From: Antedon mediterranea
Lineage: Eukaryota; Echinodermata; Crinoidea; Comatulida; Antedonidae
Direction: 5' to 3'
Assembly (NCBI RefSeq): GCF_964355755.1
Contig: NC_092674.1
Span: 29,686,001-29,750,000, forward strand
DNA length: 64,000 nucleotides
Below are positions 25,601 through 58,171 of this stretch, one piece after another (the first letter of the stretch is position 1; each line of letters opens with the position of its first letter). The notes under the pieces were generated by a model. It had not been told where the DNA came from. It saw only the letters and a list, made by a program, of their open reading frames with translations, and searched no databases. Both the position numbers and the translations under genes were made by a program.

Positions 25601-28600
25601 GCAGGCACTGCGCGTTAAATGTTATTGCGCACTCTTTTTGCCCGATTTCTGTTTTCTTGACTTACTTTTCAACTCGAAATTACGTTATACGAGCACGTCA
25701 AAAGTGACAGGCTACGCACGTGTAAATTAAAACATTTCAACATTTTTAAACATGTTCAGTAATTTCGGTCAGTATAGTTCACTATGTCGGTCGGTCCGTC
25801 TGTCTGTCGGTCTGTTTGTCTGTCGGTCCGGTATCACTATGCATTGTAGCACGCGACTTAATGGCTGTTGGCCTTGTTACTCGGGGTACCCGAGTCTAGT
25901 ACTTACTCATTTTCTCCTTCTCTTCCTCCATCTGGACACTATTGAGTAAAAAGTGCGATTTTTAAAGTACTACTCCTCCCTTATTCGTTATAGTATTGAG
26001 CTGGGATTTGGCATGAACATACTACAGGGACATGTCCTCAAAGCTATAGAGCCGGATTTTTAATTTTTTGTTAATTAATTTGTTTAATTAAGAAGCCACA
26101 ATGTATGACACACACCACAGCGTTATGTAGTTATAGGGTTATATGCGGATTCTTGGCGTAGTGGTTATCACGTTTGCTTAACACGCAGAAGGTACCTGGT
26201 TCGAGCCCGGACGAAACCTTTTTTTTTTAACTTTATGGTGAAAAGTACTGTATACGCAATATGATAATTATACAGAGTATATCTTATTTTTATTATTTTT
26301 TAAAATACTTATTTTGTGTAATCGGTAATTATCACTTTTACACATGTTTATTTTGCTTTGTGCTTATTACCATTTATTTGTAATTTAAATGGATTAAAAA
26401 ACTTTCTGTAACCCACATTTTTAATGTAAGAGGTTTCGTAGTGTAGTGGTTGTCAAGTCTGCTTAACACGCAGAAGGTCCCGGTTCGAGCCCTGGCGAAA
26501 CCTATTTTCTTTACTTTCTAACTGTATACGTCTGTATACAGCTTCTTTCGCTGTACCCCGAGTATTGCACATTCGTGCTTGTTTTTACATAAAGTTTGAT
26601 AGTGTAGACAGAACCTTTTAATTATTTTTATGATTATATTTTCTTGTAGGGTTCATCCAAAAGAAGTTTCTTTAGCAGGCTTTCCATTTTTTCTTGGTAT
26701 AGCAATATATTGTTTTGAGGTGAAATATCTTATTTTCTTTATATCAATCTAAATAGTTAATCAGGGTGTGACAACTTAAAGAATAGTCCAGGCTTACCAT
26801 TTTAGTTTCATTGTCTGTAATCTTCTAAGCTAAAATGAGATCCCTGTAGGATTGGGTTGTTCATCACCAGAAGACTAGCCTGCCAAAAAAGTGCATAGTA
26901 TTTGTATTAATATGATGTTATTTGGGGTTGTAGGGTGCTGGAATGGTTTTATCACTGGAGGCTTCGGTTCTACCATCTGTAAGATCAACATTCCGAAAGT
27001 AAGTAAATACTTAAGGCTATGGAATATTTAACAGACATTAACATTACTTTTATTCTTCAACCATGGCATATGTTAGACAGAAAGTCGAAGTACATTTCTG
27101 TAACTCAAATGAGCTAGCTACCCCTTAAATTATGTTTGCCACAGTAATATAGATTTCAAATTAACCATATCTATTTACAGTTCAACAGCATTCCCAAACC
27201 CATATACATAAAATAATATTAAATACCTGTACTTACTTTTTCTCTATTGCAGAACATTTGTATTTGCGTTGACTTTAGTGACCACACTATATATTGTCTT
27301 TGGTGTTTGTGGATACTTGGTAATTTTACTTTTTTCTATGGTGTGGGGGAAGCATATTGTAAGACCAATCAAGGTCAAAGGTCAAATAGCTCTCTTGATT
27401 CATACAAAGTGTGTTATACATTATCATATTATTGTCAATTTTTCTGTTAGTCATTTGGGCCTGAGACAGCAAACATCATCACATTGAATCTACCAGCTGG
27501 CTTCTTCCCACTGCTAGTGAAAAGTTGTCTGTGTTTCTCACTCTTCTTCACATACCCAATGATGATGTTTCCAGTTTCCAGAATCGTTGAAAATATTGTT
27601 GTACATGATCCATTAAGAAATTTAAATAAAGGGGTAAGCTTTTACTTTATTTATTTTTATATTAATTAATTAAAGCACCAAATTATAAAAAATTTAAGAA
27701 TTGGATGATCCATCATCATGATGATCAAATTACTTACAGTACGGTTACATTCATGTGGAAAACAACTTTATGCGAATGCCCAGCTTATAAAAAACATTCC
27801 TGTGTCAATTTTGATACTAATTATTACATCCACCAGAATGGAGCGGGGTCATGTGGTCAATCGGGTGTGTTTGTTTCCTTATATATTTGTTAACAGGAAT
27901 ACTCAAAAAGTTATTGCCCGATTTTCATAATATTTTAAAGGATGTAATGGTTTCATAGCTGTATGGGAACACGTCATTCAATTTTCATAAGGCTAGACAG
28001 AGGTTTGCGCTCTCTGAGTGCCCTTCTAGATAATATTTATATTATTAATATAAATATTATATTGTTTGTTGTTTCAGAACATGATCCGCTGTATGATGGT
28101 CCTAGTGACTGGTGTTATTGTAATAGCTATTCCTAACTTTACAACTTTAATGGCCCTTGTAGGGGCAAGTTGTTGTACCCTCCTTGCTTTTATTCTACCA
28201 GCAATCTTTCACATGAAAATCTGTCAAGAGTAAGTTAATTTTTTTAATATTTTTTATATTATTTGTCAAGACAATCCCACCACAAGATTTTTATCTTTAT
28301 GGGATTCTGCCTTTGTCCATTACTTTTTGTTCACTAATCTCAATGAATGAACGAAAATAGATTGATCCATTTAGATCTATCAGTCTAATCTGCCAAGCCA
28401 ATCTTTCGAAAGACAACAACTTTAATCTATAATGCAGACATGAATATCTAAAGAGTATCTTTTGTAAACAAAAATATAATATAATAATTTTGATGATTGT
28501 TTTTGAAAAACTTTTTTTTCCTATTAGAACTTTAACATCCAAACAGCTTGCTTTTGATTGGTTCCTAATAATTCTTGGTGTTATTGGGTAAGTAAATCAG

Positions 28601-32377: not shown

Positions 32378-35300
32378 TCAAGAGGTTGAGAATTTAGCAG
32401 AGAATATTTTAGCTATTCTCTTTGCTTCTTCAGCTGTTGGAGGTCTGTTTCGAGTCTTTGGTCTTGGTGGATCTTTTTGATCTTTTGGCTTGTGCAACCT
32501 ATCAGCAACCTCATTGACAGCTGCAGCCTTTGATGTTGAATACTGCCGATTCTGAGGCTGCAAGAAACAAGAAAAACTTTAAATGAAAAAGGCCAAAACA
32601 GTTGATGAGAGTTCTTTACTTGAAATAAACAAATTACAATAATTAAAACGAAACAAAAAGTGAAATCAAAATGTCCTTTTTGGTAGTTGTACCTGTACAG
32701 CTTGTTGTGGCAGTACTGATGCTGCTGTTCTTAAAGCTCTCATCGAGGCTTCCAGATCAGCAGGTGGCAGAAAGAAGTTGGGCATGAGGACAGGTTGTTG
32801 TCTGAATCGCATGGTTAAGGAAACCATATCTCACAATACAGTATAATAGTAACAAGGCAATCTAACAACAAAGATCAAAGGGTTTATCTGTGGCTGCGAC
32901 ACAATCAGTATCACACCGCACACCACAGAGTGCCTATCTTGGCAAGCTCAGTGCCCTGTTGTCAGATTGCCTTGATTGTATTGACAACACAGTAGAACGC
33001 TTTTGTGGGACATACAAAATGTGCCTTTATGGTTGTTATAAAGGAGAAGTTCTACTGTTTAAATTTACATAACTATATTAATACATCAAAATAAAGGATA
33101 CCGTGCCGGTTCACTAGCTCTCGTTTCTTGTTTTCTTTCAAACCGATCTTTTTGCATGGCAGCTTCTTCTGAGTTTATCGTTATGACAACCGAATCATTA
33201 TCATCAGCATTTTCCTCACCGCTTACACTTCCAGCAGCATCTTTTAAGGCTTGGTGGTCACTCTCCAATTCTTGGTGGTCACTCTGCAATGTTTGGTCAC
33301 TCTGCAATGCTTGGTGGTCATTCTCCAATGCTTGGTGGTCTGTTAGACCTTCCGGAATATTTTCTGTTTCATTATCGTTACCATATTCCCCTTCACCACA
33401 ACCATTTTTATTTGAACTAATTTCTTGTGGTCTATCAACATTTTGATCATTAATGTGTTGATTCTCAGATTGCAAGTCAGTGATGTCTTGCTGGCTTCTT
33501 GAGTCTGTACTCAATACAATGAAGCTCGAGTCACGGTCAAGCCGCTGCTGACCACAAGTATTTCCTACATCTTCCTCACTCTTAGCCGTTCGTAAAACAT
33601 CTTCTGGCTTACTGGTTTTACCGCCATTTTTTAAATCTGAAGGCTGATTGAAACTTGATGTTTGCTGTTGAATATCTTCATCAAAATCCACATTTTTAAA
33701 TTGGTGTTTGTCAACCTTATCAGGAACTATTAAATTACTGAATTCTTGGGAAGAGATATCATTAAGAGGCTTTGGGATCACTTCCTCAAAATCACTGCCA
33801 CTGTCCCAATCACTATCAGTCTTCTGTTCTAGTGGATCCCAATGACTGGGTGGTGGCCTAGCAGGCAACAAGTCTTCAATGTTTTCCAGCCTTTCATAAT
33901 GTATATTAGAAGATGAATCCCTTTCAAACGTCCTTGGATTATTAAGGTTGCTAATTTCATTATCTAAGTTAATTAACTCTCCTGTTGGGACAGGATAAGT
34001 GGTTGGAGCACTCATGCAACTTTCTGCCTCATTCTTATCTGATTTGTTTTCCAGAGATTGTGGAGATCTCACTCGTTCATCTGGAGATCTCATTGAACCG
34101 TATGGCTCATCATCTTTGTAACCGTCTACCAATCTATCATTCATTTCATCAGCATCATGATGTTCAAAGTTTGTGCTGCCTAGATTCTGTTGCCCATTTT
34201 CAAAGTGAGAAAATCCTGATGTTATCAGTTCAGGATAATTATCTTGTACATGATTCTTTTCTTTAATATGATTGGATGTTATTTGACTTCTGGCCTGACC
34301 TCTACTTAGATCAGACTGCCTGTGTTTATGATTCTTTCCTTGTGACCGATGTTGTTCAGAATCATCATAATCTTCTGGATGACTTCTTCCTTGTACCTGA
34401 TCTCTCCTGAGCTTTTTCTTTAAATTCTCTTGAATTATATCAAGTTGTTCTAAGTTATCCCTACAAAGAAACGTACTAATTTATCATAGTATTGGGTAAT
34501 TTTAAGATGGAAATATATTAATACGATACAAAAACATTTTTTGTGCCTTGAATAAGTAGGAAAACATACCGAAGACTGCGTCTCAAAAATGATTTTGAAT
34601 TCATCATAAAAGATGTCGATGTATCAGACCCTAGAACTCCAAGAGAGGGAGTATGTTGACTTCTACTTTTTTCTCTGGTGCCCAAATCAACTAATTTCTG
34701 CTGGAGTGACTCATGAAATTGCCGTACATTCTTGAGATGATCCTCGAAGTGCGAGGCTTCCTGGATCGACGGTTCTGTCGATTTTGAGTCACAACATTGT
34801 ATTGTCTGCTCAGGGTATTGTACTAAATGGCTTGGAAACTCAGTGTATTGGCTGCTGGATTGGAAGCTGGTGGTTTTTGGCCTTGGTGACATCATGGTAC
34901 TTTGTTGTGTTGGGTTTACAGGTTGCTTCAGTGGAGAAATGCTCTCCAGCGGTGAAATACCAATCTAAAACAAAAAATAACACTATTAGTATATTTTAAA
35001 GGTACTATATACACGTGGAGTTTAATACCTATTTTGTTCTATGTAACACAATTGAGAGTTACTATAAAATCACAACAGACAACAAGCATTATACTGACCT
35101 TGAGTTGACCCTGACATTGTCCACTGAAATCCATGATATTGTACCAACCATTGATCAATTTAAAACCAGCTAGCAAAGGGCAAAGGTCAACGGATACAAA
35201 TCCTAACACACGGTCATTAGCTGTGTTCGGCTCTTTAGATGTTTGTTGCCAAATTTTAAATATTAAATTCTAGAAAAAAAGTAATTATAGAAATGGTAAA

Positions 35301-50300: not shown

Positions 50301-53300
50301 AGAATACTATTTTTTAAAACATTAAGTTTTTCCTAGATAATTACATAAAGTAATAAAAACATTTATTTTAATTAATTAATTTAAATTTTTATTTTATATG
50401 GAATAATTGTTCATGTACAGAACTGAAAATGAATGTCTTATTTTTAGTATTTGAAATACAGAGATGTAGTATTCTGTAATATAGTAGCTAAATGAAACAA
50501 GGATATAAGTAAGAATAGAAACTGGAGTCTTATTTTGATGTTTATACATTATAGAAACTACTGGTACTACATGAGAACAAGTTTCAGTAATGACTCCAAC
50601 AAGTTGAGAACAACAGCTTAGAACAGCAACATTTAAATGTGTCTACAAACAACAATGCATGAATACCTTTTATAAAGGTTACACACAGGGCTATCTATTA
50701 AAAGCATTAATTATCCAGAACAGAGGTATGTATTAAGGTATAAAAGTTTATTATTTATTTTAACCACATTTAACAGTTAGACAGGAAAATAGAGAATGCT
50801 ATGCTTTCTAAACTGCATAAAGGCTACCTCAATATCTAGGTAGGGGAAAAACGATCAGATTCCTGGACTGTACTAGACAAACACATCATTTGGTTAGATA
50901 CTAGTTTACTTTAGCTGGAAACTTCAATAAACTGTGATATGTTGTAATAAAGCACAAAAATGGTAACTGCATATCATAATGTCAAAAAGTGCTTCCATAA
51001 TTATAATAATAATATTCGTTCTTATAGCGCTTATTGCACAATGCTTCTAAGCACTTCACATTATTACCCTGGTCATCAAACACCTATGGAAACACAATTC
51101 TACAATTTAATGATTTTTAATCAAAGAATTAATCTATTCTAGAATATTGATATGTTTTAATATTTTTTTACAGTATATTATTAATTTTTTCCTTAAATAT
51201 ATTTTTTATAGTGAATATCCAGTTGACTGAAAAAATGGAAGATGCATTAATCACACTACAATGTCTTACTTTGTTGGTTGTCTTGCTCAACACGTTTGTA
51301 CTAGCTATGGTGCTTAAGAAGCTGACCATCAAAGCTACACCAGGGCCAGCAATAAGTGCCAAAGTAACCACCACTACTGGTGAGATACAGCCAATAGAAG
51401 CTGGTGATATTGGTTCACAACATCAACAAGTCACTGACAATCGTTCAGAAACGGTTGAGGACAATCCGAAAAAACAGCTTTTCCAATTTTTAACACGTCC
51501 AACTGTTTTAACAAATTTACAACATAAAGAAAACGCTGAAGACCTTAAGAGCTCTAAACAACAGGATTATCTGAAAATCTGCGAGGAAGAAGGCACATAC
51601 GACGACACGTACGAGAATGATATGCTACCGTCTACGAAAGACAACAAACATGCTAAACCAAGACCAGTCTTTGACAGCAAGTATAAACCTGCAAAACCGA
51701 ATTTCCCGGCAAAACCGAATTTCCCGGTAAAACCGACGAAAGGAGTGCAAAGATCACAGTCAGCAATCAGCTCATTAGCTTCTACCAAATCAGAGTTTGT
51801 TAGTAGGATGCTGAATGCCAAACACACAGGAGGATCGCTGACCAAGCTCAACAAAATTTGTGAAAACGCATCAGAGTCCTTAGTGCCCCCTAAAATGCCG
51901 CTCTCCCCCGGAATAAAAAAGGCTACTCCTTTTGCCAAAGTGCCAGTCCAACTGTCAGAAAGCTATTATGTTATTGAAGAACCAGAAAATGAATATGCCT
52001 ACGCCTATATTGACACTAGTTTCACTTCCTCCAAACGATAATTTTAAATGTATTAATTTAAACAAGTTGTTTTACCACCATCATGATAAAAACTATTATT
52101 TCTATGTTCAATCTATCAGTATTTGTTTTCATTTGTGTATTTTATCAGTTTAATATTAGCAAATTTTATTTTTTGTTTTTTATTGAAGCCTTGATTATTG
52201 TCTAAATTTTATTTATTGCTTTCAGTGAAACATAAAAAATGAGCATTGAGGAGAGATAACAGCTGCCAAAATAAGGGCATGTCTCTCCAACTATTGCAAT
52301 AGTAATTTTTTAATAAACTAATGTTATAATAACCTTACAGAGGTTGAGATGCGAGCATTGCAGGATTTTTCCATGAATCAAGTTCCGCTTGAATCATATT
52401 GTTTCGTAGTTGTGTGCCTCTGTTTAACAGGTTACTGATTAAGTCCGAGCCTTCCCCCTTCAGCGGATGTAGCGCAACAGTTGGCGGTTTTAATATTTCT
52501 GTTTCCAAAATAGCGGAATCAGATTTTCTAAGATACTCTATTTAAAAGAAATGAATTTAAAAAAGTTTAGTAACAGTTTTTACTCAGTTGTTTCAGAAAA
52601 TACAGGACATGTTTATATTTATTAGCACTTGGATTGTTAGAAATGAGCACAACAAAAAATAGAAAATAAAAAAGAATTTGATTGTTACCTTTGTTTTGTT
52701 TAGATTTATATTCATCAAATTTGGTCTCCATCTTAGAGACGTCGGTTGTTGTATCCTTACTAGACAGACCAGCTGTGTACCCTGGACCAATCACAAAGCT
52801 ATAATCACTATCAACGCGAATGTTGGTTCTAGGTTCCTGAAAATACAATATAAATATTATAAACCTTTGTTTACTATTGTAAATATTTTTAACTGTGATA
52901 TTACACTCTGATAAAGCATAGTGAGAGGACTGAGGCTAAATTAGGGTTATGGTGGGGGTCGTGAGGAGAACAGATGAGATTATATAAAAATCAATAAAGC
53001 TGCTAAATATTAAAAAACTAAGTAACTAAAAATACAATTTAAAAAAAAAAAATTTTTTTTTTCAATCAAATGTTACCATTTTATTCAACAAGTATATTCC
53101 CATCGTAAATCAATGTGGAATTACACTATGACTAGAAGCATGGGACGGGACCGAGTCTAAAGCTCTGTCTACACTATCAAACTTTTTGTGACAAAAAAAT
53201 GTGATGTGACCATATATGGACATGATGATGACATATCACTACCATATATGGGTCAATCACACTTTTTTTGTCAAACTAGTTTGATAGTGTAGACAGAGCT

Positions 53301-56300
53301 TAAATGAGGGGGTAGAGCGAGATTATACAACTAAATAAAACTGCTAATATTAAAAAATGAACCTTTATCTTTGATCTTGGAGATGGATCATTGGTGGAGG
53401 CGACAGAATGCTGATAGCTGATCGGTTGTTGTTTTAGAGCATCATCTCTTCTTGACGCTGAGCTGACATTTCCAGACCTGTCACTTTCTCTAGGCAGCAT
53501 ACTCATGTCGGTAGTGGGCATTGAGCTGGAACTTTCATATGAAACTAAAATTTAAAGAAAAATTTCATATTAACATAAAAAAATTAATTATAGCTTTATT
53601 CTGTATTCTATTCATATAAAGACAATTTTTGATTTATGTCTTTAAGCACATGTGGCCAAGGAATTACCAATAGTAAATCAATCACTGTCCTATCAGATAG
53701 GTGGTAATTCCCTGATACAGCGGTTATTTTGTGTGTATTAAACAGTAGCACTCCTTTTAAAGGGACATATTAAGGACCCAACAAAGCGTATTAATAGGGG
53801 TTATTAATTTTGAACTGATTAGGGGGGCTTGAAAAGGAGGGATTCTTATCTATGCATTTAAAACAAGAAAGACGATTGGAAATAAGTTTTTTGAATTTTG
53901 ATCTGGTATAAAACATAAATTTGTATAAGTTTCTACCTACCTGGAAGTGGCTCAAAAACAAGGCTGATCTGGAGCTCAGCAATCTTCTCTGCATTCTTAT
54001 TAGAAAACACATTAAACAATCTATACAATACAAACAAAAGAACTGTTGTAGAACATAAGTAAAAATACATCAACTATTCATTAAAAAACCACCAAAAATA
54101 ACATATAATTAGATCAAGACAAATAAAACAACTTGCCCATTAATTGGTCTTGTAGGTGCCAGATGTCCAATTTCATTTATTTGTGCTTTACCCATCAATG
54201 TCATAGTTTGCCCACGTAATACCTCAAACACAGCTGTTCCCATATGTATACGGTAAGTTAAGGTTAAAGGTCAGTAAATGATGAAAAATGATTGTAAAAC
54301 ATTGTCCACTCATTTTTAGTCGCGTGGAAGCGACTCTATAGTTCACTATGTCAGTCGGTCGGTCTGTCTGTCGGTCCTGTATCACTATGCGTTTTATCGC
54401 TTTCTGACCTTATCTTGATATCAGTTTAATCTAGCTAAGTCAATTTTTCACAGTATATTCCTTATGGCCAGGAATCGATGTGGTTATGTTTTCACGGTGC
54501 GCAATAAAAAAATATGCGGTCTACGCACGATTTAACGAAATCACGTTTGTAATCATATCTTCACAACTTTGAATCACAATTAAATAAAATTTGGTACTCA
54601 TAAATTTCAGGGCATGAATCATCATATGGCAATACAATTATGTGCGTAGCGCATGTAACGCATGCGTACGCGCGCTTAAAATTTTCAAAATTTATTTTTG
54701 ATGAAATAAGAGTACGTTTCAGACAATTTTAAGCGTTTACAAAATTGCCATGAGTGCGCAGATTTTTGCACGCGCACTGCACGTTAAATGTTATTGCGCA
54801 CTCTTTTTGCCCGATTTCTGTTTTCTTGACTTACTTTTCAACTCGAAATTACGTTATACGAGCATGTCAAAAGTGGCAGGCTACGCACGTGTAAATTAAA
54901 AAAACATAACTGTTTTTAAACATTTCAACATTTTTAAACATGTTCAGTAATTTCGGTCAGTTGGTAGGTTGGTCGGTCGGTTGGTAAACACTAAGCACGC
55001 GACTGCAGCCATCTATATGGCCTTGTTTTTTCTAGCTTTGGACATATCTGAGGAAGAAAAACAGCTATTTATATTAGTTTTTCTACATTTTTCTGTTATG
55101 GATCTTACCAAGGCAATCTAACAACAGGACACTGAGCTTGCCTTGCCAAGATAGGAACTCCTAACATTCCTTTGATCTTATGTCTGGCTGCGACAAATAC
55201 CCACAGTACTGTGTTAAACCAGGGCTCGCAGAATCGCTTGCCCGACGTCCCGCGGCAACCAAATAAATACGTCGGGCAACTAAAATTTAACATGTCATGT
55301 CCCAACGGGCAACCTCTTAAAATCACCGAAAATGTCCACGATGTTTTACAGGGGTTGTGAAAAACTGTAACAATGAAAATAATAGTCGCGCACGAACGAA
55401 TTCTCTTGACGTCGAGACCAGTGTAGTGTTTGTTAAGTAAATGTATGGATCGGAATTCGGTGGTATGGAACGTTATCTCCAGGAGCCAAAACATGTGTTT
55501 CTATGCAGTCGGGCGTATCAAGTCGTTGCGTATAGAGTTTCCAGGTCTGTCATATAGCACGCGGTCTCTTGCGGCATCCATTGATCGCGAAATAGGAAGC
55601 GTTGAACTCTCGGCTTTTAACTTATTTGAAGTTATTATACCAGGGAGTTTCTAATTAACAACTCCCTAGTTATACTACAGTATAAACCAAATAAAATAGG
55701 GGCTAGTATGTTTTTGTTTTTCTCAATTATCGACATCATTTTACGGTGGTAATAAAATCTGAATCTACTACTTAGTATTAATTATGTGGCCTACAGCCTG
55801 ATAGTAGATTAGGCCTATGTTTAATTACATTCATGTTATGTATTTTGTGTGTAATAATAAATAATTTGCTGAATTACTGTAATTATTGTTCAAATGTACA
55901 GTTGTATTGAAAATACAGTATATTATTAAATTATAATAGATACGTAATTTTAATTGTCTGTGCCAAATAGGCGGCGGCCGATGTTTTTAACACAGGCAAG
56001 TAGGCCTACCATTTTTTTTATAAATATTACAGAATATAAATTTAATAGGCCTAATAATTTATTTAATAAATACATTGAATACTTAAATAGTTACAGTATA
56101 TTTTTTATTATCAACATTGAAAATAATACACTTCTAATCTTCGGGTATCGCCGAGAGTTGAACTTTCAAAAACTCCAACTTGGCGGAGCACGTGGTTTTC
56201 ACCACAATTCGGCACAGTTCTCTTGTGTTGTTTTCAATCACCAACTTGTGCGAGCAGATGGTTGTTTTTATCCAACCTGTGCGAGCTTCTACTGAAACAA

Positions 56301-58171
56301 CAAGTAAACTTCCACAAGCCCGCACTCTCCACACACCATACCCATGTGCTCCTACTACGTACGGCAGCTGCTGTGAGGTTTTTTGCTATACGCATGCGTA
56401 TTGTTTCACGTCACGTAGACGGACGTCAGTTGATGTTTGTTTTTTTTTTTCTTCTCTATGATTTCAACGCGTTACAAGCTCATCACCTTCATATGTACTT
56501 TGTTTAAACTTTTTAGGCTTAGGAGGCCTACATTTCTATAGGCAATATTTTAGATATATCTATTAAATAATTGTAAGATAATTAGTGCCATGTCTAGGCC
56601 ACTACGTTTTAAATATCGCAAAATAGCTTGATTTCGGAATTTCATTGCACAATAGAAGCAAAACGTTTTTGCTCCCAAAGTAAACCCACGTGAATTCATT
56701 CACGTAACGGAACACATCTTCGATCGATGACAAACAATGCCGTGCAACGAAGCGTAACCAACAGAAATAACACAGCGTTTTCAAGGGATTTCAGGACACC
56801 ATGTTAATTAAACAATCGCAACTCTTGTACGGAGGATCGTATGAGAAAATAAATTACTGTAAAATGTTCTTAAAAGATCGGCCTACATCACTGTGTAATT
56901 GAAAAAATTAGAAAAATTTTTTTCACTACTTTAAAATCCATCGAAAAAAACACCACAGTGTATTAAGCATAGGCGTTTTTCACCGACGTTTTTTCGCGGT
57001 GCAGTCGCGGTATAAAACGTTAAAATTAAGTTAAAATAGTGGGCAAGTAAAAAAATGATGAGGGCAACCAAAATCTAAAACCTACTTGCCCGAAGGGCAA
57101 CCAAATATTTTAGGATTCTGCGAGCCCTGTAAACATAAAGGATATCATTCAAATACGTTGCAAACTGTTTGGGTCCACATCTAATAGGGAATCTTGCAAT
57201 TGATTTTAAAGTTGATTTTTTATGATTCTTGACGTCGAAAGGTCTGAAATGGAAAAAGGTGTGTTGATTTAGGCATGCAGTAGTATAAACGTACAGTATA
57301 ATTCCACATCTATATTAAACAAACAGTATTACTTAGCCATAGTAAGCCTAAAAATATTTACATTTTATTTTAATAATCAAATCTTGAAATTGATAAATGA
57401 CTTGAAAGTTGCTTAAATGTAAATCGGAGTCATTATTTGCTAAGCATGTGTTCACACAGCACTACATACAAACCTGTATACAGTTCCGCTTGAGAGTTCA
57501 CCCCACCATCGAAGTCTCACATGCACAATGTCTGGTGGATTTGAGATGGTCCAAACAATCTTAGTTACACTAACTCGCAGGTAGCATCGGAGCTGACCCT
57601 CAACTTCAGGGGGCAAGCTTGTCGATGCTTGTACATTCTCCTTTGGTGCTAAACAAATAATTCACACAAACTTTAATTTACCTATTTTATATTGTTTATT
57701 TATAGGCCTATAATATATAATTAAAATTAAAGAGAAATTCAATTCAATGCAAGAGTAATTTCAATTAAAGACAAACCAACATTTTCATTTTGTTTAAACA
57801 AGCCTAGCCTAGCCTAGCATTTTTAGCCTACTAGGCCTAGCCTAGGTTTAATAAAAATAAATTAAATGTTCACGCCAACAATAGATGACAATAATTCTAA
57901 ATTCCTAGGTAGGCCAGGCCTACATCTATTTTTATTTGTCTTCGGTGGCGCACCATGAATGTGGGCGTTCCATACCTGACGGCTCATGATGCCACTGTCG
58001 TCCTTTGACACACAGTGGCCAAAAAAAACCTTCTCCCGCGCGGTGCACCACACAAAATTAGCCTGGTGGGCCTTCTAGATAGGCCTAGCCTACCTCCTAT
58101 GCCAGCCTGGCACACTTCTTACCTCGTCTCCTTGCCTTTTTTAATCCAGTTTTCCCTTTTTTACCTTTCAT
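32378..58171 (-). CDS. C2CD3: C2 domain-containing protein 3 (C2CD3)
   Basis: Distal-centriole protein required for distal appendages, centriole elongation and ciliogenesis in vertebrates. I assembled 44 coding exons, all consistent in phase, into 2582 aa (human about 2350); exon coordinates are in the three sub-entries. It starts [16 protein letters not shown] and continues with the family-diagnostic [16 protein letters not shown]. Successive C2 domains follow, at roughly aa 20-165, 551-748, 883-1061, 1105-1272, 1273-1546, 1547-1719 and 1720-1902. The C-terminal tail of 680 aa is acidic and Gln/His-rich with a conserved [17 protein letters not shown] block near the end. Introns 3 and 42 are U12-type. 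The gene spans 26 kb, is loaded with repeats, and hosts a nested plus-strand gene in intron 8. PIBF1 lies upstream on the same strand. Confidence 0.95.
32802..33101 (-). other. U12-type GT-AG intron (C2CD3 intron 42)
   Basis: 300 nt. It starts GTATCCTTTA (exact minor-class 5' site), has TTTCCTTAACC with the branch A 13 nt before the terminal CAG, and lacks a pyrimidine tract. The codon is split CG|A (Arg) between SEPA-R and [10 protein letters not shown]. Confidence 0.94.
32856..32974. repeat. MITE family C (CAAGGCAATCTAACAACA ends)
   Basis: Left CAAGGCAATCTAACAACA; right TGTTGTCAGATTGCCTTG, one mismatch. It lies inside the U12 intron 42 of C2CD3. A related fragment is at 55112-55200, with shared words GGCTGCGACA and CCAAGATAGG. 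Confidence 0.7.
33235..33345 (-). repeat. Coding minisatellite in C2CD3 exon 42
   Basis: 21-nt units encode repeated [21 protein letters not shown] heptads (one DQTLQS hexad), six or so in a row, within the disordered C-terminal tail. The frame is preserved. Probably a variable-number coding repeat. Confidence 0.8.
35386..35525. repeat. Tourist-like MITE family A
   Basis: AGCTCTGTCTACACTATCAA ... TTGATAGTGTAGACAGAGCT, a perfect 20-bp inverted end. In C2CD3 intron 39. Confidence 0.92.
35701..36057 (+). repeat. 87-bp tandem repeat, 4 copies
   Basis: Units beginning CACGATCCTAGCATATCTAT at 35703, 35790, 35883 and 35970; the second unit has a 6-bp insertion (ATTCAT). It creates an artificial 116-codon open frame that I do not treat as a gene. 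In C2CD3 intron 39. Confidence 0.92.
36196..36384 (+). repeat. 35-bp tandem repeat, about 6 copies
   Basis: Unit CTAGAGTTGATTATCCCATA + TTAAAGCACACATC. The last copy runs into GTAAGTGAACATCCTCAGAT. A single dispersed relative lies at 38328-38383, so the array grew inside a pre-existing dispersed repeat. Confidence 0.88.
36598..36711. repeat. Tourist-like MITE family A
   Basis: TAA|AGCTCTGTCTACACTATC ... TTGATAGTGTAGACAGGGCT. Shortened core. In C2CD3 intron 39, the third repeat cluster in that intron. Confidence 0.85.
38187..38312. repeat. Tourist-like MITE family A, diverged
   Basis: Left AGCTCTGTCTACATTATC and the core TGATGTGCCCATATATGAAC. The right arm is degraded to GAGCATAGACAGA. In C2CD3 intron 34. 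Confidence 0.75.
38661..39042 (-). repeat. 58-bp tandem array that contains the C2CD3 exon 33 splice donor
   Basis: Seven copies at an exact 58-bp period; the GTAAGC donor (minus strand) occurs at 39023, 38965, 38907, 38849, 38791, 38733 and 38675. Each unit carries the last ~24 nt of exon 33 (ATATGGAAGGGTGGCCTAAA plus CAAG) followed by GTAAGCAACATTAATAAAC. Only the copy nearest the exon body is continuous with the C2 coding sequence ([10 protein letters not shown]). Five of the six intronic units are almost identical; one has a single T-for-A change at 38945. Confidence 0.95.
39600..39686 (-). repeat. Short repeat of the C2CD3 exon 31 donor region
   Basis: Four copies of AGTCACCTGATT downstream of the exon 31 donor (minus strand). 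The true donor reads G|GTAAGTCACCTGATT, and the next copy also reads GTAAGTCACCTGATT. The outer two have AAAGTCACCTGATT. Spacing is about 20-30 bp. Confidence 0.75.
40187..40300 (+). repeat. Dispersed repeat shared with 50047-50165
   Basis: Both carry GGCTGGATCTCAATG(C/G)AGAT and AAATTACTGAAAAA, about 80% alike over roughly 100 bp by eye. Family unknown. In C2CD3 intron 29. Confidence 0.65.
40681..40840. repeat. Tourist-like MITE family A
   Basis: TAA|AGCTCTGTCCACACTATC ... TAATAGCGTAGATAGAGCT|TAA, with TAA on both sides. In C2CD3 intron 28. Confidence 0.88.
42971..43063 (+). mobile_element. tRNA-derived SINE-like repeat
   Basis: GGCTTGAATCTAACCCCTAG and a B-box-like GGTTGTGGGTTCAAATCCCG. 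Same family as the sequence flanking the minisatellite at 16503-16615. In C2CD3 intron 23. Confidence 0.6.
44056..44183. repeat. Tourist-like MITE family A
   Basis: TAA|AGCTCTGTCTACACTGTT at the left; the right end GATAGTGTGGCT|TAA has lost about 7 bp. In C2CD3 intron 21, ending 25 bp from the exon 21 donor. Confidence 0.85.
47813..48115 (+). mobile_element. tRNA-derived SINE, family 2 (Deuterostome-SINE-like tail)
   Basis: tRNA-like head GTGTGGTGTAGTGTGCTGG and GAGATCGAATCAAACTCTCG. The body holds GGCAAGACACTTTACTTACG and TTTTCCTCTCTCCACTCAG, a domain I recognise from sea-urchin-type SINEs. The tail is GCGCATTGAGAGCTTGC...ATTATTATT. In C2CD3 intron 11. Confidence 0.7.
48239..48378. repeat. 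Tourist-like MITE family A, truncated
   Basis: AGCTCTGTCTACACTATAAA at the left. The core is interrupted by T-rich sequence and the right arm is missing after GGGCACATCAC. It ends about 6 bp from the donor of C2CD3 exon 11. Confidence 0.8.
50047..50165 (+). repeat. Dispersed repeat shared with 40187-40300
   Basis: Contains GTATCAGTGGCTGGATCTCA. Followed by GGGCAACACTAGCCCTTCAT and an (AT)n run at 50248-50272. In C2CD3 intron 8. Confidence 0.6.
50998..51085 (-). mobile_element. SINE 3' tail fragment
   Basis: On the minus strand GTGCTTAGAAGCATTGTGCA, AATAAGCGCTATAAGAACG and a TTATTATTAT tail, typical of 5'-truncated animal SINEs. Lies 150 bp upstream of the nested orphan gene. Confidence 0.6.
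51235..52041 (+). CDS. Nested single-pass membrane protein with ITAM-like tail (orphan)
   Basis: I do not recognise this protein. It is an uninterrupted 268-aa frame lying antisense inside C2CD3 intron 8. The first ATG gives [20 protein letters not shown]: a hydrophobic segment at residues 4-27 followed by KK, predicting a type III protein with almost no outside part and a cytoplasmic tail of about 240 aa. The tail has [12 protein letters not shown], a short proline/lysine repeat ([17 protein letters not shown]), [15 protein letters not shown], and near the C-terminus [16 protein letters not shown], which fits YxxI-x8-YxxI. The frame stays open upstream through a GTG to an acceptor-like TTTTTTATAG at 51201-51210, so a 5' exon is likely. 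An AATAAA at 52312-52317 is the candidate polyadenylation signal. Length, codon balance and composition argue for a real gene; expression is unproven. Confidence 0.7.
   Translation: MEDALITLQCLTLLVVLLNTFVLAMVLKKLTIKATPGPAISAKVTTTTGEIQPIEAGDIGSQHQQVTDNRSETVEDNPKKQLFQFLTRPTVLTNLQHKENAEDLKSSKQQDYLKICEEEGTYDDTYENDMLPSTKDNKHAKPRPVFDSKYKPAKPNFPAKPNFPVKPTKGVQRSQSAISSLASTKSEFVSRMLNAKHTGGSLTKLNKICENASESLVPPKMPLSPGIKKATPFAKVPVQLSESYYVIEEPENEYAYAYIDTSFTSSKR
52312..52317 (+). terminator. Candidate polyadenylation signal of the nested orphan gene
   Basis: AATAAA 270 nt after the stop codon and just before the antisense C2CD3 exon 8 boundary (52339). Confidence 0.5.
53161..53300. repeat. Tourist-like MITE family A, best-preserved copy
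   Basis: AGCTCTGTCTACACTATCAA and TTGATAGTGTAGACAGAGCT are perfect inverted ends, TAA on both sides, length 140 bp, nearly full foldback. In C2CD3 intron 6. Confidence 0.93.
54318..55030. mobile_element. Foldback-type element with AGTCGCGT ends, second copy
   Basis: About 90% like 25148-25870 by eye, with AGTCGCGT at 54318 and ACGCGACT at 54997-55004, then GGCCTTGTTTTTT. It lacks the inner tRNA-bearing element. In C2CD3 intron 3. Confidence 0.7.
55112..55214 (-). repeat. MITE family C fragment
   Basis: CAAGGCAATCTAACAACAGG and GAGCTTGCCTTGCCAAGATA match the reverse complement of the element at 32856-32974. Its other end was cut off by the adjoining 1.9-kb insertion or lost. Confidence 0.6.
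55220..57129. mobile_element. 1.9-kb non-autonomous DNA transposon with CAGGGCTCGCAGAATC ends
   Basis: 16-bp perfect inverted ends, CAGGGCTCGCAGAATC at 55220-55235 and its complement at 57114-57129, flanked by TAAAC on both sides (55215-55219 and 57130-57134). Subterminal TTGCCCGAC/GGGCAACC words repeat at both ends. Internal open frames are short and resemble no transposase I know. The TIR is hAT-like (CAGGG...), but hAT makes 8-bp duplications, so the superfamily is open. It sits 16 nt from the start of the AT-AC intron and leaves its 5' site intact. Confidence 0.75.

Follow-up and report, generated by a model that had tools for sequence, protein, structure and literature searches.

A predicted U12-type AT-AC intron, lengthened by three repeats, in the part of an Antedon mediterranea C2CD3 orthologue encoding the N-terminal C2 domain

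In minor splicing, U11/U12 engages the branch site jointly with the 5′ splice site and is then joined by U4atac/U6atac-U5. Once U6atac has replaced U11 on the 5′ splice site, the branch A makes the attack. About 22–26% of human minor introns are AT-AC introns (PMC6717393, PMC10639083), and the optimum spacing between branch site and 3′ end in minor introns is 11–13 nt (PMC6717393). Splicing of AT-AN minor introns in human cells is promoted by CENATAC, the depletion of which affects 92% of A-type versus 24% of G-type introns (PMC8280824). Two minor introns occur together in 50 human and 50 mouse genes (PMC6717393), and the non-tunicate deuterostomes, including the starfish Asterias rubens, have minor intron densities like those of vertebrates (PMC10639083). 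C2CD3 is already on record among the human genes with a minor intron (PMC8767276). The literature searched on the human intron names the gene only, and the likeness to the gene described here is that the same gene is classed as a minor-intron carrier.

We analysed a stretch of 64,000 nt of the A. mediterranea genome (the window), in which an orthologue of the centriole protein C2CD3 is encoded on the minus strand. A search for COX1 returned no match. Its N-terminal C2 domain is almost certainly interrupted by a functional A-type (AT-AC) U12-dependent intron. The initial annotation had claimed a 2,900-nt intron on this strand with AT...AC termini and exact U12 5′ and branch motifs, and direct reading of the sequence reproduced its coordinates and letters exactly. 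The intron begins with ATATCCTTT and ends with CCTTAACTTACCGTATAC (longer read of the 3′ terminal stretch, TGACCTTTAACCTTAACTTACCGTATAC), with AT at 57145-57144 and AC at 54247-54246, and the downstream exon opens with ATATGGGAACAGCT. The branch core is exact, although the two preceding bases are AA instead of the usual TT (TTCCTTRAC type), and 12 nt separate the branch A from the last intron base. AT-AC introns had also been called a small minority of U12 introns: a minority they are, but at the human share given above they are not rare. In its 5′ splice site, branch motif, spacing, termini, phase 1 and accompanying minor snRNAs, the intron resembles U12-type AT-AC introns of other animals and is the same in kind, differing in the three repeat insertions that lengthen it. 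The coordinates are collected in Table 1.

Table 1. Introns, exons, splicing elements and repeats described in the text (positions in the window)
Feature	Position	Strand	Details	Basis or remark
AT-AC intron of C2CD3, U12-type	54246..57145	-	2,900 nt, phase 1	motifs and protein continuity
5′ splice site	57137..57145	-	ATATCCTTT	0 mismatches to U12 consensus RTATCCTTT
Branch site	54257..54263	-	CCTTAAC	branch A taken as 54258
C2CD3 exon with first part of N-terminal C2 domain	57456..57648	-		PF25339; borders by eye, approximate
C2CD3 exon just upstream of AT-AC intron	57146..57243	-	ends TTG AAT G, phase 1	PF25339 match across junction
Start of C2CD3 exon downstream of AT-AC intron	54192..54245	-		end from rough gene model; Pfam match continues to ~54138
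Repeat 1, non-autonomous DNA transposon	55220..57129	-	1,910 bp, inverted ends CAGGGCTCGCAGAATC	multi-copy and target duplication
Repeat 2, multi-copy repeat	55109..55212	-	~104 bp	at least 39 other places, 89–97%
Repeat 3, multi-copy element	54313..55027	-	715 bp, AACAAGGCC...CGCGACTAAAAA	40 other places, nearly all 94–97%
Second C2CD3 intron, U12-type, GT-AG	32802..33101	-	GTATCCTTT ... TTTCCTTAACCATGCGATTCAG, 300 nt, phase 2	motif match
Intron of TAF7 orthologue, U12-type, GT-AG	20391-20206	-	GTATCCTTT ... TCCTTAATTGAGTACCAAAG, phase 1	protein continuity

The length of 2.9 kb had been attributed to two transposons, the nearer of which was said to end 16 nt from the 5′ splice site. Length and distance were both right, but the repeats number three, the ~104-bp one having been missed. 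Once they are removed, the intron's own sequence amounts to 16 + 2 + 81 + 67 = ~166 nt, with the target duplication counted once. Repeat 1 is flanked by the 5-bp duplication GTTTA (57134-57130 and 55219-55215), and an exact 5-bp duplication is present at 10 of the 12 copies inspected, including that of the intron. Many near-full-length copies of this family match at 92–98%. At 11 of 1,896 sites (0.58%), the sequence in the intron departs from the majority of eleven other copies, so this copy is recent. A transposase-sized reading frame was looked for in a longer relative of repeat 1 and none was seen. For repeat 3, which at 2.1% off its family majority is suggested to be older than repeat 1, no clear target duplication was found. 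The repeat 2 family is represented in both U12 introns of C2CD3, in opposite orientation (55160-55109 and 32974-32928, 52 bp, 84.6%).

Since the nearest transposon is young, as judged by its low divergence, the intron could be real and of U12 type but impaired by this insertion, leaving much unspliced C2CD3 from this allele. We consider this improbable: the 9-base 5′ splice site, the branch site and the 3′ end are all intact, the C2CD3 gene model is open throughout its length and, in one survey, the more-retained minor introns were the shorter ones, not the longer (PMC6717393). A related suggestion is tentative and rather unlikely: that individuals are polymorphic for the recent insertion next to this A-type 5′ splice site, and that it lowers C2CD3 splicing or sets its timing. 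If true, it would provide a natural allele testing how much downstream sequence is needed by a U12 5′ splice site. Any effect on C2CD3 dosage is something that we infer.

The position of the junction was examined with the family profile of the N-terminal C2 domain. Joined at 57146/54245, the exons match PF25339 (C2_C2CD3_N) with 163.4 bits (E 4.1e-48, profile positions 5-144 of 145), in keeping with the claimed place of the intron in this domain. Without exon 4, the score falls to 102.5 bits. A 69-aa piece around the join gives E 7.5e-18 on its own; its residues 2-69 correspond to profile positions 53-120 without net gap, 68 residues being aligned to 68 positions. Donors in 57190-57061 and acceptors in 54420-54151 were then enumerated for GT-AG, GC-AG and AT-AC pairs, which yielded 62 stop-free joins, 47 of them in the frame of exon 4. 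Seven alternatives, chosen by eye because their length and sequence most resembled the family, were scored and obtained 154.1, 153.3, 153.3, 147.6, 146.2, 124.7 and 116.4 bits. The statement that only this junction restores the conserved sequence thus holds in the sense that it is the best of the eight scored against PF25339.

These scores bear on the possibility that a nearby U2-type GT-AG junction is used and that the AT-AC motifs are there by chance. Stop-free GT-AG and GC-AG pairs do exist, and among those tested 57134/54223 and 57125/54223 do best. However, they reach only 146.2 and 147.6 bits, respectively, with the conserved strand disturbed, and the nearest plain GT-AG pair (57134/54223) loses four residues and relies on a weak donor, GTTTAC, lacking the usual +5 G. 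Each U12 motif by itself is unremarkable, since the counts in the window on both strands are close to chance expectation (ATATCCTTT, 1 observed versus 1.29 expected; CCTTAAC-AC, 5 versus 4.84). Their joint occurrence at the one junction fixed by the protein has, by our arithmetic, a chance probability of ~1e-5 x 4e-5 = ~4e-10; correcting for the 62 stop-free junctions raises it to ~1e-8 to 2e-8. A GT-AG junction is therefore very improbable.

The genome encodes a minor spliceosome. Genes for U12 (125.7 bits), U6atac (136.6 bits), U4atac (97.6 bits) and two for U11 (88.6 and 82.9 bits), covering all four minor-specific snRNAs, score above the Rfam gathering score; U6atac also has a weak second copy (33.7 bits). 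The two U11 genes have diverged, with identical 5′ ends and middle parts in common. CCDC84/CENATAC is represented by five matches inside 3.5 kb of one contig. Base pairing is possible between the 5′ splice site of the AT-AC intron and both the U11 5′ end AAAAAGGGCUUU and the U6atac sequence AAGGAGAG, and between the branch site of this intron and GUAAGGA of U12. The computed U12-branch pairing is weak (-5.0 kcal/mol versus -10.1 for the second U12 intron of C2CD3), and pairing as good is available at ~10.6% of window positions; such duplex energies are compatible but poorly discriminating and were given little weight.

U2-type AT-AC introns begin with ATAAG. That the major spliceosome handles the C2CD3 intron is exceedingly improbable, as it begins with ATATCCTTT and not ATAAG, carries CCTTAAC 12 nt from its end and lies in a genome with all minor snRNAs, even though AT-AC introns of U2 type do exist (PMC6717393, PMC8280824).

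Taken together, the motifs, their spacing, phase 1, protein continuity, the minor snRNAs and the CENATAC gene make the U12-type AT-AC reading well supported; we infer that the intron is actually spliced. In the pathway proposed, the U11/U12 di-snRNP would bind AUAUCCUUU through U11 and CCUUAAC through U12, both being read as one unit. On arrival of U4atac/U6atac-U5, U11 would give up the 5′ splice site to U6atac, and the attack would come from the branch A, 12 nt before the AC end. CENATAC, which in human cells helps AT-AN introns, probably helps this one too. The present length of the intron comes from three repeats inserted into ~166 nt of intron sequence, and none of them disrupted either recognition element. 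If the intron were retained, translation would run through a 26-residue stretch and stop in the transposon, within the first C2 domain, and the resulting C2CD3 message would be truncated and presumably decay-prone in the animal.

The second U12-type intron of C2CD3, near the 3′ end of the gene, is a GT-AG intron with the branch site TTTCCTTAACC located 13 nt from its end, stronger than that of the AT-AC intron. With one AT-AC and one GT-AG intron, C2CD3 is comparable to the genes with two minor introns described in human and mouse (PMC6717393), with no known difference. As a control set of donors, and for this use only, we built a rough dynamic-programming model of the gene (58171-32378, ~35 exons, 2,003 aa), in which both U12 junctions were imposed and which is faulty at the 5′ end, where it omits the exon at ~57648-57456 found by PF25339. 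Among its 33 donors, only those at 57145 and 33101 match xTATCCTTT without mismatch, the remaining ones departing from it at 2–7 of 8 positions. Other U12-like donors (39271, 50506, 52751, 59595 and 30494) were set aside as lying within an apparent exon, or as imperfect and lacking a matching acceptor at a plausible distance. C2CD3 is single-copy in this genome. Nothing reached the cut-off when the rest of the predicted protein was compared with Pfam and NCBIfam, so its C-terminal half is called C2CD3 through continuous exons alone, and a PDB search for C2CD3 gave no match.

Elsewhere in the window, the exons of the TAF7 orthologue, joined over its U12-type intron, align ungapped with TFIID subunit 7 (PDB) across the junction. 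Three U12-type introns in a 64-kb window are above what an average of ~0.3% would give. A coiled-coil gene on the same strand (63160-59884, minus) precedes C2CD3, its end lying ~1.7 kb before the start of C2CD3. Antisense within C2CD3, a 276-aa reading frame (51211-52041, plus) contains PAKPNFP repeats and is hydrophobic over a stretch at its N terminus; it had no match in Pfam. The sole Rfam match within the window is a tRNA gene (26432-26503, plus).

The AT-AC intron is correct but expected, as C2CD3 is a known minor-intron gene, AT-AC introns make up about a quarter of human minor introns, genes with two minor introns are known and the densities in non-tunicate deuterostomes are like those of vertebrates. 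It is a sound, ordinary new example of a well-known class and leaves the knowledge of minor introns unchanged; new here are the second U12 intron of C2CD3 (33101-32802) and that of the TAF7 orthologue (20391-20206). Gene predictors limited to GT-AG are likely to break C2CD3 at the AT-AC intron, where overlooking it leaves the first C2 domain truncated or wrongly joined. With two U12 introns in C2CD3, centriole assembly would depend twice on the minor spliceosome in this lineage.
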